Origin: Phormidium tanganyikae FI6-MK23
GTDB lineage: Bacteria > Cyanobacteriota > Cyanobacteriia > Leptolyngbyales > Leptolyngbyaceae
NCBI GenBank assembly: GCA_019359175.1
Contig: JAHHHU010000004.1
Span: forward strand, 1 to 64,000
Reading direction: 5' to 3'
DNA: 64,000 nt
In this document: piece after piece, positions 5,248-10,104 of the stretch
Position numbering within the stretch: position 1 is the stretch's first letter
Layout: each line of letters starts with the position of its first letter
Program-made: the position numbers and the translations under genes
Notes under the pieces: generated by a model
Seen by the model: only the letters and a program-made list of their open reading frames with translations
What the model was told of the DNA's origin: nothing
The model's database searches: none

Positions 5248-6633
5248 ATGCAGCTACACTGCACTCGTCCTGGTTGTGCCCGTCCATTGAATCATTTTTC
5301 GGATTTGGATGACCCCAACATTTTGAAATCCATTCCGCAGAAGTTTTGTACGCACTGTGGAATGCCGTTGATTTTAGTGGGGCGGTATTTGCCAACAAAA
5401 TTGTTGGGACAAGGGGGATTCGGAACGGCATTTTTGGGACGCGATCGCTACACGCCGAAATTGCGTCAATGTGTCGTAAAACAATTTCAGCCATCGGGCA
5501 ATCTTAAGCCTGCTCAGTTGAAGATTGCCCAAGATTTATTTGAACGAGAAGCCGAAGTTTTAGAACAGTTGGGGCGCGAACATCCCCAGATTCCGGATTT
5601 GTTTGCGTTCTTTGAATTGACCGTTCCGAATGCTCAGACGCAAAAAGACGATGGGTTTTTCTATCTCGTTCAGGAATACATCGACGGGCAAACGCTCGAA
5701 GAAGAACTTGCCCAAACTGGAAAATTTCCAGAAACCGAGATTGTGAAAGCGCTCGATCAAGTGCTGAAGATTCTCGATTTTGTTCACGAAAACGGCTCGA
5801 TTCACCGAGACATCAAGCCCTCGAACATCATGCGTCACAAGAACGGGCGATTTTATCTGCTCGATTTTGGTGCGGTGAAATTTGTGACAAAATCTGTCGG
5901 CAATCCACAGAGTTCAACCGGAATCTATTCGGCTGGATTTGCGCCGCCTGAACAAATGTCAGGTAGTCAGGTTTTTCCCTCTAGCGATTTGTATGCTTTG
6001 GCGGTGACTTGCGTGATGCTGTTGACGAACAAAGCGCCTCAAGATTTGTTTGATAGCTACAACAACAGTTGGAAATGGCGGAACTTCGCGCAAGTCAGCT
6101 CACGTTTAGCCGATGTCCTCGATCGAATGTTGCTTTATGCTCCTGCCGATCGCTATCAGTCTGCGATCGAAGTTCTAGATGCGCTTGCCCCGAAACCTGC
6201 TGTGCTTCCGCCTCCAGTCATTGCTCAACCAAAACCCATCGCTCCTCGTCAAATCTCGCTCCCTAGATTTTCAACGATCGAGATGATGAGTAGTGCTTTG
6301 TTTACCGGATTTGAGGGGGGAGTGATTGCGATCTCGCTTGTGAGTTTGTTGGGGACAACACTGATCAGCGCAGGCTTCTGGTTCGCGCTGGTTGGAATTT
6401 TGATTTTGGCTCAATTCTTGCGCTTCATCGAGAAAGTTGATTTCTTAATTTTGGCGGTGATTTCATTCCTAGTTGTAGGATTTGTGGGACAACTGAACTG
6501 GGCAGGAGCCTTTATTCGAGCCGGAAACCCATTTTTGAATATTCTCGCCATCGCTGGATTTACAGGATTAGCAGGACTCGCGATCGCGCTGTTATTTCGC
6601 CTGATTTACAAACTTGTTTCCCGATTTTTATGA
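5248..6633 (+). CDS. Membrane serine/threonine protein kinase with 4-Cys prefix
   Basis: Hanks-type kinase of 461 residues. It begins with a four-cysteine zinc-ribbon-like prefix (C5, C10, C34, C37). The kinase domain follows: glycine loop GQGGFG (54-59), ATP lysine K78 (VVK), catalytic HRDIKPSN (D188) and DFG (206-208), all intact, so it should be active. After a proline-rich linker (about 310-335) the last 110 residues hold about four hydrophobic segments, so the kinase is tethered to the membrane with the catalytic domain most likely cytoplasmic. Its stop codon overlaps the start of the next gene in ATGA (6630-6633), which implies translational coupling to a phosphate-binding-type protein. 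The target is unknown. Confidence 0.93.
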   Translation: MQLHCTRPGCARPLNHFSDLDDPNILKSIPQKFCTHCGMPLILVGRYLPTKLLGQGGFGTAFLGRDRYTPKLRQCVVKQFQPSGNLKPAQLKIAQDLFEREAEVLEQLGREHPQIPDLFAFFELTVPNAQTQKDDGFFYLVQEYIDGQTLEEELAQTGKFPETEIVKALDQVLKILDFVHENGSIHRDIKPSNIMRHKNGRFYLLDFGAVKFVTKSVGNPQSSTGIYSAGFAPPEQMSGSQVFPSSDLYALAVTCVMLLTNKAPQDLFDSYNNSWKWRNFAQVSSRLADVLDRMLLYAPADRYQSAIEVLDALAPKPAVLPPPVIAQPKPIAPRQISLPRFSTIEMMSSALFTGFEGGVIAISLVSLLGTTLISAGFWFALVGILILAQFLRFIEKVDFLILAVISFLVVGFVGQLNWAGAFIRAGNPFLNILAIAGFTGLAGLAIALLFRLIYKLVSRFL

Positions 6634-7652
6634 CTCAAAAAAACGAAACGCCCGCTTTGATTGTTTCGCTGTTGGTGACAGGTTGTTTGCTCGGTGCGGG
6701 AGCGTGGTGGATTACTAAGGGATCGAGAATTGATCTTTCTCAAACTAATTTGCCTGCCTCGCCACAATCTTCTGTGAGTAGCACTCAAGTCAATTGGTCA
6801 AGCGTGCAGAATGTGCCGTCGGGCATTTTCAACTATGGCGGCAGTACCAGTTGGGCACCGCTTCGATTGAGTGTCGATTCTACTTTGCAGGCTGCTCGCC
6901 CTGAATTTCGATTGCGCTATGTTGATCCAGCAGGTAGCACTGCTAGTTCGACTTCTGGAATTCGGATGCTGCTCGATGGTCAGATTCAGTTTGCCCAATC
7001 GTCGCGCCCAGTCTCGCCGCAGGAACAGCAGGAAGCACAGCAGAAAGGCTTTAGTTTGAGAGAAATTCCGATCGCGATTGATGGATTAGCGATCGCGGTC
7101 AATTCCTCGCTGAATCTTCCCGGTCTTTCCTTGGGACAACTGAGAGATATCTATACCGGACAAGTCACGAACTGGAAGCAAGTCGGTGGCTCTGATCTGC
7201 CGATTACTGCTTTTTCGCGCGATTCTAAATCTGGTGGAACTGTAGAACTTTTTATCGAACAAGTTCTGAACAAACAAGCACTTGGCTCATCGGTGCAGAT
7301 TGTTTCTACTACAACCGAAGCACTCCGAAAATTGGGCGCAACTCCGGGTGGAATTTACTTTGCTTCGGCTCCTGAAGTGGTTCCACAGTGTACTGTGAAA
7401 TCGATCCCGATCGCTAGAACGAATCAATTTGTCGCACCCTATCAAGAACCGATCGCGACTTGTCCAACGCGCAATCAATTGAATACTAAAGCGTTTCAGG
7501 ATGGAACTTATCCGCTGACTCGCAATCTCTCAGTGATTGTGAAACAGAACAATGGCACGGAGCAGAAAGCCGGGGAAGCTTATGCGAATTTGTTGCTAAG
7601 TACTCCAGCTCAAGAAGCGATCTCAAAAGCAGGCTTTGTCAGAATTCGTTAA
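6630..7652 (+). CDS. Membrane-anchored PstS-like substrate-binding protein
   Basis: 340 residues. An N-terminal hydrophobic segment (residues 9-29) acts as signal anchor, and the rest is a periplasmic binding protein of the phosphate (PstS/PBP-like 2) superfamily: FNYGGSTSWAPL near residue 67, the SSRPVSPQE region, GQLRDIYTGQVTNWKQVGG and SRDSKSGGTVELF, all characteristic of the family. No lipobox is seen. No pstC, pstA or pstB genes are near, so transport is unlikely. The 4-base overlap with the upstream kinase gene suggests it works with the kinase, perhaps as its extracytoplasmic ligand sensor. The downstream gene converges on it with a 4-base overlap of coding ends. Confidence 0.88.
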   Translation: MTQKNETPALIVSLLVTGCLLGAGAWWITKGSRIDLSQTNLPASPQSSVSSTQVNWSSVQNVPSGIFNYGGSTSWAPLRLSVDSTLQAARPEFRLRYVDPAGSTASSTSGIRMLLDGQIQFAQSSRPVSPQEQQEAQQKGFSLREIPIAIDGLAIAVNSSLNLPGLSLGQLRDIYTGQVTNWKQVGGSDLPITAFSRDSKSGGTVELFIEQVLNKQALGSSVQIVSTTTEALRKLGATPGGIYFASAPEVVPQCTVKSIPIARTNQFVAPYQEPIATCPTRNQLNTKAFQDGTYPLTRNLSVIVKQNNGTEQKAGEAYANLLLSTPAQEAISKAGFVRIR

Positions 7653-9994
7653 GCTTCGCGGACAAGATGTAACTCTGTTGTTTCTCGACTTACAAAGCGT
7701 TTACGAAGTTTTTGAATCGCTTCGATCGCGTGTTGGTGTTTGGCTTGATCGCCTTGAACCGAGAACAGCCAAGCCGCTTCTTTGAGATCTCGAATTGCCC
7801 CGGTTTTGTCATTCATCGTGCTACGAGCTAAACCGCGATGAAAGTAAGCCACTGCATTTTGAGCATCGATCGTCAGCATGGCGGTAAAGTCATCGATCGC
7901 ACCTAACTTGTTCTCAAATCTCAGGCGTGCTAGTCCGCGCTGCACATAGGCATTGAGGCAAGCGGGATCAACTTGAAGTGCATAACTGAAGTCATCGATC
8001 GCATTTACTTTCTCACCGATCTGCAACCAAATCACCCCCCGATTGCAATACAGAACCGGATTGTGAGCGTTACTAATCACAGCCCGATTGAGATCCGCGA
8101 TCGCGCCTGCATGATCTCCTAATTCAAACTTGATTAGAGCGCGATTGTTGTAGGCGACACTCTGCTTTGAATCGAGTTTGATGGCGCTGGAATAATCATC
8201 GATCGCGCCTTGTCGATCGCCTAATTCATATCGAGTGATCGCACGATTGAGATACGCGATCGGATTGTTCTCTAACACCGGATTGTCAAAGCGATCGACT
8301 AAGCCTTGAATCACGGTTGCGTTTTGGGTGCGGAGCCCGATTGCGATTTCTGGAAATGCTGTGCTGGCAGTCGCAACGGGATGAAGTCCGAGAATGCTGT
8401 AGGTCGAATCGCAAACTAAAAAGTTCTCGCTGGTTCCCAGAACTTTGAACCGAAATTGCGTTGGATAGTTGTGCTTGAGTTGAGTGAGTTGGCTGAGAAT
8501 CTTTCTGAGGAAATTCTTTGAGATCGATGGAGCTTCTCGATCGTGAATGTAGCGGGTTTGCTGTGCAACTTGTTCGTCGCCCAAATGCCCCCAACCAATA
8601 TCGAGCGACCCCCCGCGATCGAGAAAGGTTTGAAATTGCCGGATCAATTCATCGTCTAGTGTGGCGCGATCGGGATAAGGAAAGACCACAATGATGCGCG
8701 ATTTTGCTGAGTTGAGTGCTTCTTTCAGGACAGTCCGAGTATTCTCAAACGGATCAGTTTTTTGCGAGAGATCAAACATCAACTCATATTCGGACTTGGC
8801 AGCAGGTGTCACTAACTCTGCAAGCTGATTCTCAGTCACTTCTAAGCGCGATGTCAGGTACTTAATCTGAGTTTGTAGCGCACTGGCATCAAGCATTTCA
8901 GGCAGCCGTCCCATCCATTCGGTTAGATGCTTCTGTTGTCGATCGAGGTTCTGAGTATAGTGCTGCACACTGTTAAATTGCGCTTGCAGATGGTCGAGAT
9001 GACCGTTGAGCATTGTTTGCATTTCGGTGTGCAACTCAGCTAAGTTTGCACCGCTTGAGACAGTATTTAAGCGCTCTTCGAGTTGTGTAACAGTCGTTTG
9101 TAGCTTCTCAATGTCAACGGTTGGCGAAGCTGGATGTCCGGTTGCAACCCAAGAGGATAACGTATCCATCTGCTTTCGCATGATGGTGTTTACCGATCGT
9201 AGGGGTGCAACGGTTTGCTCTAAGGTTTGATGCTGCTGGCGAATTTTTTCAACTTCAGCCATCAATTTCGCCATATCCCGCCGAGGCACCAAATCCCCAA
9301 CGACTTTCACCAATCCATCGACTTCTTGTTTCAGCGCTGTGGCATCAAACGGCTGAGGTAAGCTATTCAACCGCCGATGGATTTGATGAATCTCATCTTG
9401 CATCACACGCGGAATCACTTGCTTCTGACTCGTTGCAACATCGGTGATCTTGGAGTGCAACTGTGCGACTTCAGTTCTCAATTGACCGATCGTATTTTCC
9501 GCTCCCTCCACCCGATGGTTCGTTGCCAATCGACCTAAATACTGTGAAACGGTCGCCAAGGATTCGGATAGCTGTGAATACTTGGTTTTGAGATAAGACA
9601 GTTCTTGCTCAAGCTGGTCAAAATCTCGATTCTCGATCGCGCTCAATCGATGAGAAACACTGTGCTGTAATTGTGCGATCTCATTGTCGTGTCGCTGTTG
9701 AATTGTTTTGCGAACACTGGCAAGATCAACGAAACTGGGAAGCGTGCGGACTTGCTGATCTAAGCCTTTGATCTCGTCAGATAAACGCCGATCGAGATGG
9801 GCAATGTTCGTGTTTGCCGCTTTTAATGTCTCTTTATCCAGACGACGGCGATTGACTAAATTTAGTAACAATAAGCATGAAACAGGAGCAGCGGTAAATG
9901 CAAGTTGCTGGGATGCGATCGATGCGATCGAACCCGCGCCCGATCCAATGAGTACTAAGTATTCAACTAGACTGAGCCATTTTGCATTCTTCAT
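7649..9994 (-). CDS. Coiled-coil protein with degenerate PLD-like domain and C-terminal TPRs
   Basis: 781 residues from the ATG at 9994, which follows AGGGGCAAT; a GTG at 10012 is also in frame. Two short hydrophobic stretches lie in the first 45 residues, followed by about 330 residues of heptad-rich coiled coil. A globular domain follows (about 400-570): SRIIVVFPYPDR, GGSLDIGWGHLGD and GTSENFLVCDSTYSILG. This resembles a phospholipase-D-type fold, but the catalytic HxK is replaced (SENFLVCD). The last 200 residues hold at least five TPR units (pattern AYNNRALIKFELGDHAGAI). It is probably a membrane-bound scaffold with a dead nuclease/PLD-like domain. Function unknown. Confidence 0.8.
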   Translation of the reverse strand: MKNAKWLSLVEYLVLIGSGAGSIASIASQQLAFTAAPVSCLLLLNLVNRRRLDKETLKAANTNIAHLDRRLSDEIKGLDQQVRTLPSFVDLASVRKTIQQRHDNEIAQLQHSVSHRLSAIENRDFDQLEQELSYLKTKYSQLSESLATVSQYLGRLATNHRVEGAENTIGQLRTEVAQLHSKITDVATSQKQVIPRVMQDEIHQIHRRLNSLPQPFDATALKQEVDGLVKVVGDLVPRRDMAKLMAEVEKIRQQHQTLEQTVAPLRSVNTIMRKQMDTLSSWVATGHPASPTVDIEKLQTTVTQLEERLNTVSSGANLAELHTEMQTMLNGHLDHLQAQFNSVQHYTQNLDRQQKHLTEWMGRLPEMLDASALQTQIKYLTSRLEVTENQLAELVTPAAKSEYELMFDLSQKTDPFENTRTVLKEALNSAKSRIIVVFPYPDRATLDDELIRQFQTFLDRGGSLDIGWGHLGDEQVAQQTRYIHDREAPSISKNFLRKILSQLTQLKHNYPTQFRFKVLGTSENFLVCDSTYSILGLHPVATASTAFPEIAIGLRTQNATVIQGLVDRFDNPVLENNPIAYLNRAITRYELGDRQGAIDDYSSAIKLDSKQSVAYNNRALIKFELGDHAGAIADLNRAVISNAHNPVLYCNRGVIWLQIGEKVNAIDDFSYALQVDPACLNAYVQRGLARLRFENKLGAIDDFTAMLTIDAQNAVAYFHRGLARSTMNDKTGAIRDLKEAAWLFSVQGDQAKHQHAIEAIQKLRKRFVSRETTELHLVREA

Positions 9995-10104
9995 ATTGCC
10001 CCTGAATCTCACAAGTCACTGAGTAGTAAAAGGTACATTAAGTACTGTTTGTTTCTACAGTTGCACGATCGTCAAATCAGGAAATTGAACTGAGAAAATT
10101 TTCT

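Follow-up and report, generated by a model that had tools for sequence, protein, structure and literature searches.

A membrane kinase and an anchored PstS-like binding protein of Phormidium tanganyikae as probable subunits of one receptor kinase

The kinase and binding-protein genes

The window analysed is a stretch of 64,000 nucleotides from Phormidium tanganyikae FI6-MK23 (contig JAHHHU010000004.1). On its plus strand an open reading frame for a kinase of 461 amino acids overlaps by 4 bases (ATGA) with an open reading frame for a binding protein of 340 amino acids, which suggests translational coupling of the two genes. The following features were assigned.

5248..6633, plus strand: 4-Cys-prefix Ser/Thr protein kinase with four C-terminal transmembrane (TM) helices, cbSTKI-TM / SpkF-type architecture (ORF, Pfam, NCBIfam, alignment, TM count)
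5257..5370, plus strand: 4-Cys prefix of the kinase, residues 4-41; C5, C10, C34 and C37 invariant in 18 relatives (NF045510 match, alignment)
5395..6159, plus strand: catalytic domain of the kinase, residues 50-304, catalytic motifs intact
6295..6597, plus strand: membrane domain of the kinase with four helices, residues 350-450 (TM count, profile)
6630..6633, plus strand: ATGA in which the kinase gene ends and the binding-protein gene starts (sequence)
6630..7652, plus strand: signal-anchored PstS-fold (PBP_like_2) binding protein, 340 aa (ORF, Pfam, NCBIfam, alignment, predicted structure)
6630..6713, plus strand: shared N-terminal anchor of the binding protein, residues 1-28, which LivJ-type and other domains carry as well (anchor alignment)
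6720..6809, plus strand: linker rich in Ser and Pro, residues 31-60, of variable sequence (23% pairwise identity over residues 31-58)
6813..7649, plus strand: ligand-binding domain, residues 62-340; most of the anion-site motifs retained, C254 and C278 invariant

The kinase matched Pkinase of Pfam (E 2.1e-34) and the 4-Cys prefix NF045510 of NCBIfam (E 4e-10), and the Pfam scan at E ≤ 0.001 revealed no family beyond kinase-fold models. An alignment of 18 relatives shows no variation in GxGG, K78, E101, HRDIK, DFG or any of the four cysteines. Hydrophobic segments were found C-terminal to the catalytic domain at residues 350-368, 372-390, 397-415 and 432-450, and a profile of this four-helix (4TM) domain detected it as a single copy per genome in 44 of 58 relatives. 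Values of dN/dS were 0.05-0.15, with dS > 1 in many pairs. The structure model of the kinase (mean pLDDT 67.6, TM part mostly < 60) was left unused. An earlier note on this DNA had described an apparently active membrane kinase that overlaps by 4 bases with a signal-anchored PstS-like protein, in the absence of phosphate permease genes nearby. This description was borne out by the intact motifs and the four C-terminal TM segments, by the ATGA overlap and an N-terminal TM segment in the binding protein, and by the lack of any pst permease or ATPase gene in the flanks read around the pair.

Two further types of neighbouring gene were observed. A gene for a coiled-coil and TPR protein (7649-10012, minus strand) is convergent with the binding-protein gene and overlaps it by 4 bases; a similar gene adjoins the binding-protein gene in L068. 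A gene for an RbcR-like regulator of the LysR type adjoins the SpkF-type kinase gene in several lineages (L203-L205, L207, L209, L211, L212).

The binding protein matched PBP_like_2 of Pfam (E 4.2e-33), and with 135.3 bits it remained under the cut-off of 206.6 bits for the PstS subfamily TIGR02136. It has one TM segment, located N-terminally (residues 10-28). Its predicted structure (mean pLDDT 85.2) matched 1twy (Z 27.8, rmsd 1.9, 240 residues), the phosphate-bound 4gd5 (Z 25.9) and 9l8j (Synechocystis Sll0540; Z 24.2); according to this model the protein has a PstS-type fold, matching that of phosphate-binding proteins. The ligand residues of canonical PstS (SGT loop and others) served as reference for the ligand site. 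In the binding-domain alignment G71-S72-T73, S107 (34/35 rows), S125-R126, R197 and G203/T204 (33/35 each) are kept, and the position of Ser in the canonical SGT loop is occupied by Gly in 30 of 35 rows. Judging from this motif conservation, the ligand of the PstS-like domain is likely an anion, perhaps phosphate. The cysteines C254 and C278 are invariant in all 35 aligned rows. Among 107 relatives both are present in 100 and both absent in 5, the second occurring alone in 2; a disulfide would explain this joint presence and absence, and the pair supports an oxidised, extracytoplasmic location of the binding domain. Mean pairwise identity in the binding-protein alignment amounted to 66% for the N-terminal 8 residues, 56% for the TM segment, 23% for the linker and 61% for the domain, by which measure the anchor appears as conserved as the domain itself. 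In a control with true PstS orthologues the signal peptide was 51% and the domain 69% identical, so that the contrast in anchor conservation is moderate, not dramatic.

Neighbourhoods, co-occurrence and the shared anchor

We consider it quite probable that the two genes encode two subunits of one transmembrane receptor kinase. The neighbour relation, the lack of conservation of which would according to the earlier note refute such a unit, was found to be conserved in three surveys. In a sample selected by binding protein (PBP), comprising 34 loci (the window and L057-L089), the kinase gene, whole or truncated by a contig edge, was located upstream in 22 loci, sometimes with LivJ-type genes in between, and 12 loci had no kinase upstream. 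In the class sample 101 matches to the kinase membrane domain were parsed for coordinates, from 131 genomes with a match; about 30 weaker matches, many from groups without an anchor match, were left out. Among the matches listed, an anchor was encoded no more than 5 kb downstream, on the same strand, in 63 of these 101 kinase loci (at least 63/131 over all 131 genomes), in 59 of the 63 within 320 bases, and 15 of the parsed loci had two downstream anchor matches. The third sample was selected by kinase in named genomes and consisted of the best 80 of 348 confirmed loci, of which 77 were testable and three had < 700 bases downstream. A PstS-like and/or LivJ-like gene was located directly downstream in 53 of the 77, including three loci in which the start of the binding-protein gene overlaps the kinase end, and after a second kinase in 2. 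No such gene was found downstream in the other 22, many of them from Microcoleus, Tychonema and other Oscillatoriales, and these were counted against the receptor interpretation. The same applies to G004, in which the PBP match next to the retained kinase was limited to a remnant of 60 residues.

Adjacency of kinase and anchor spans 10 taxonomic families and is therefore more than chance. An association by chance or local synteny only, with which the absence of adjacency in some lineages (the 22/77 of the best 80 of 348 loci) would agree, has a negligible probability in our judgement; it is contradicted by the surveys across 10 families and by fusions of the kinase with PstS-like and with LivJ-like domains (see below), and was rejected.

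The genome of P. tanganyikae FI6-MK23 harbours six PBP_like_2 matches over the cut-off, three of which are the PstS proteins of complete pstSCAB operons on other contigs (genes named from sequence). It could be argued that the binding protein of the window is an extra PstS feeding one of the Pst (or other) ABC permeases of the cell in trans, the kinase merely regulating uptake. The PstS fold, the largely kept anion-site motifs and the presence of three PstCAB permeases in the genome are in agreement with such a role, as is L076, where the gene for the anchored PBP lies beside pstSCAB. L076 is the only case of this kind among the PBP-selected anchored loci, however, and a Pst permease was found in 0 of the 80 kinase-selected loci (best 80 of 348), two of which (L217, L254) encode a different type of ABC ATPase; association with ABC transport genes in relatives, also raised by the earlier note, is thus confined to L076 among the anchored loci examined. 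Furthermore, each Pst operon of the genome has its own PstS, the conserved segment anchors the binding protein in the membrane, a LivJ-type protein has the same anchor and the same place in the operon, and transport does not explain why PstS-like domains occur in one chain with kinase, caspase or CHAT domains. We regard an extra PstS as very unlikely, and a transport role was rejected on these points as the main interpretation.

The gene located between kinase and PBP in L062-L064 encodes a LivJ-type domain behind the same N-terminal anchor. This label is based on an HMM from three sequences, with a curated-library check on L124 and L062, which gave Peripla_BP_6 (Pfam) for L124 and a branched-chain-type substrate-binding protein (SBP) model (NCBIfam) for L062. 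At E ≤ 0.01 an anchor model gave matches in 45 of 58 relatives; at least one of these matches, to an 851-aa protein of G005, is weak and probably false. The domains found behind the anchor are PstS-like, LivJ-like, NMT1-like with OmpA, and GUN4; the NMT1/OmpA matches are weak, and anchored genes of the NMT1/OmpA and GUN4 types did not adjoin the kinase gene in the loci read. In G047 and G049 neither anchors nor 4TM kinases were found.

Several variants of the anchored proteins were seen. L126 and L127 combine the shared anchor with a GUN4 domain behind it (identified by Pfam in L126), the location of which outside the cytoplasmic side would be unexpected. Proteins of ~525 amino acids with a weakly similar anchor are encoded in L142, L144, L146, L147, L149, L151 and L153, and those of L142 and L144 show an NMT1-like domain with a C-terminal OmpA domain. 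In close relatives of the binding domain (L042, L043, L045, L046, L047) an N-terminal zinc-ribbon-like motif and a TM segment replace the anchor; the neighbouring gene in L042, L045 and L047 codes for a large protein (Tubulin_2 in L042).

Many anchored proteins are encoded by solitary genes, which was counted against the receptor interpretation. Together with the anchors on NMT1/OmpA and GUN4 types this means that the anchor may be a broader signal. Co-occurrence of kinase and anchor bears on this point. In 242 genomes of the class, with thresholds of E ≤ 1e-100 for the full-length kinase and E ≤ 1e-4 for the anchor, both were found in 130, the kinase only in 36, the anchor only in 6 and neither in 70 (odds ratio 42, Fisher p 1.5e-26; the p-values ignore relatedness). 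Thus 130 of 136 anchor-bearing genomes have a SpkF-type kinase, a kinase present in 166 of the 242 genomes, and no anchor was detected in 36 of these 166, which again was counted against the receptor. The strict kinase threshold was aimed at excluding other kinases and also counts fused and truncated SpkF-type kinases; with a kinase-domain model the other kinases of the P. tanganyikae genome scored at most 246 bits versus 520. The membrane-domain model alone yielded both in 110, kinase only in 21, anchor only in 26 and neither in 85 genomes (p again ignoring relatedness). In four f23 loci that were looked at, the kinase is of full length and its membrane domain has diverged; when the full-length model was applied, the number of anchor-only genomes fell from 26 to 6. 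In some kinase-only genomes a diverged anchor is present, either on a LivJ-type protein (L203, L206, L207) or on a PBP (L309, L310); a LivJ gene of this sort exists in at least three genomes with no detected anchor (G084, G124 and G236). Kinase and anchor are both missing from G005, while the kinase is present in 7 of 8 sampled genomes of that genus, the window's included (genus inferred), and likewise both are missing from G021, G030 and G241, which have relatives in the same genus or family.

These data also bear on an alternative function for the anchor, namely that of a signal by which solitary binding proteins in general are sorted to the envelope or retained there, with the operon reflecting co-regulation under nutrient stress and no action on the kinase. 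Its occurrence on NMT1/OmpA and GUN4 proteins, the many solitary genes and the 6 genomes with an anchor and an undetected kinase speak for such a signal. However, the anchor tracks the kinase with the odds ratio given above, the four genomes lacking both belong to the same genus or family as others, and the same kinase type occurs fused with either type of sensor. Such a sorting function without action on the kinase is considered very unlikely.

Single-chain fusions and the proposed receptor kinase

Fusions of kinase and PBP had been suggested in the earlier note as something to look for, and natural kinase-TM-PBP single chains were indeed found. In L301, L302 and L304, from three genomes of one inferred genus, a 4-Cys kinase (511-522 bits) and a PstS-like domain (354-372 bits) are joined in one chain by a single TM segment, with anchor-like sequence in L301 and L304. 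The genomes of these loci gave no match to the 4TM domain model or the anchor model, so by these searches the fusion replaces the separate pair in one genus (inferred). Five proteins from four genomes (L372-L376) show the same kinase type joined via one TM segment to a LivJ-like domain, a label given here by the three-sequence HMM alone (364-461 bits). In a midpoint-rooted tree with fine branching unresolved, the SpkF-type kinases and both kinds of fusion are set apart from the other kinases of the P. tanganyikae genome by a branch with support 99/93. This tree, calculated without long outgroup branches, showed the same grouping as one that included them, in which SpkF-type kinases and PstS fusions were set apart by a branch with support 97/90.

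The PstS-like domain is not limited to this kinase. It is fused to other kinase lineages (L039, L044, L295; L048, L049) and via one TM segment to caspase (L050, L306) and CHAT (L294, L303) domains. In L296-L300 it appears by eye to be fused to a receiver-like region, with no such Pfam match on L296. L051, L052, L054, L055 and L056 begin with a 4-Cys-like segment, which precedes a kinase-like region whose HRD and DFG motifs are degenerate, a TM segment and a diverged PstS-like domain; read by eye, these are apparent pseudokinase receptors.

A kinase needs cytosolic ATP. With the kinase in the cytosol and one TM segment in the chain, the fused binding domain would be located outside. The occurrence of the same kinase type fused with a PstS-like or a LivJ-like domain, and of the same anchor on both types of domain, which are often encoded in tandem after the kinase gene, supports the receptor interpretation. 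That the pair is a coupled sensor, not a transporter, is well supported by the operons, the exchanged binding domains and the natural fusions. The proposal of the earlier note that kinase and binding protein form one signalling unit is upheld by adjacency and fusions, but the unit extends beyond the pair, as LivJ-type partners with the same anchor belong to it.

From these data we infer the following mechanism. The conserved N-terminal anchor would hold the binding protein in the membrane, with its N-terminus in the cytosol and the binding domain outside, and would dock onto the 4TM domain of the kinase. When a ligand is bound outside and the binding domain closes, the signal would pass through the helices and change kinase activity inside, presumably in this direction, and thereby phosphorylation of putative substrates. 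The kinase would take interchangeable anchored sensors, PstS-like and LivJ-like, and could therefore read more than one external solute. It is conceivable, though we lean slightly against it, that one membrane kinase per cell is a hub for several external nutrients, served by plug-in binding proteins with a common anchor: PstS-like (anion), LivJ-like (amino acid or amide) and possibly NMT1/OmpA, including sensors encoded far from the kinase. If true, the swapping of extracytoplasmic domains while the anchor stays constant, together with parallel mergers into single chains, would represent a modular principle of receptor kinases in cyanobacteria.

Comparison with known systems

The binding protein resembles PstS (1twy, 4gd5, 9l8j) in its fold and in most anion-site motifs. 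Unlike PstS, it has a TM anchor, scores below the TIGR02136 cut-off, has mostly Gly in place of the Ser of SGT and has no permease, which calls for caution against annotating these anchored genes as phosphate transporters. A pknD-pstS2 neighbourhood exists in M. tuberculosis.

Statements on the published systems below refer to the portions of the sources drawn on here. The cbSTKI-TM subfamily, including SpkF (slr1225), was described as Ser/Thr kinases followed by 3-6 TM helices, with no other recognised domain (Zhang et al. 2007, PMC2176072). The window kinase, which has conserved kinase motifs and four TM helices after the catalytic domain but lacks further domains, fits this subfamily by architecture. 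In these portions of PMC2176072 no partner or signal is given for cbSTKI-TM kinases, whereas the window kinase type has a conserved binding-protein partner. SpkF is an active plasma-membrane kinase, and its phosphorylation shifts with nitrogen and carbon supply (PMC11863333), which applies if the window kinase belongs to the SpkF group; kinase activity of SpkF is also reported in PMC10651672. The SpkF mutant is almost wild type (PMC11863333), which was counted against the receptor interpretation, and the consulted part of this review names no signal for SpkF.

Control of Ser/Thr kinases by SBPs has been stated in general terms (PMC9602780). For the GlnH-GlnX-PknG system of Actinobacteria, control of a Ser/Thr kinase by an extracytoplasmic SBP has been proposed (Bhattacharyya et al. 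2018, PMC6069109); that system and the pair of the window share a conserved operon of a Ser/Thr kinase and an extracytoplasmic SBP. However, PknG has no TM segment and GlnX is a separate TM relay, while in the window kinase and TM domain form one chain without a separate relay. GlnH is a predicted lipoprotein, the SBP of the window has its own TM anchor, and the SBP families differ. Receptor fusions of kinase and ANF are known from Nostoc/Anabaena, for example alr0344 and Ava_2791 (Krupa and Srinivasan 2005, PMC1262709; PMC2176072). They resemble L372-L376 as single chains of a Ser/Thr kinase and a binding domain of the branched-chain-amino-acid type. The PstS-like fusions fall outside the 14 added domain types of the 2007 list (PMC2176072), and in the portions of PMC1262709 and PMC2176072 used here no two-gene operon form or shared anchor is described for kinase-ANF fusions.

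In the open-access PMC literature searched no description was found of a SpkF-type kinase with a PstS-like or anchored partner. Coupling of SBPs to kinases and kinase-ANF fusions were thus already known from the sources cited in part above, whereas the PstS-like partner, the shared anchor and the fusions replacing the two-gene form did not appear in the literature searched. What activates bacterial Ser/Thr kinases was called an outstanding question (PMC6069109, in the part cited). The conserved ligand-binding partner makes the activating signal of the widespread SpkF-type kinases directly testable.
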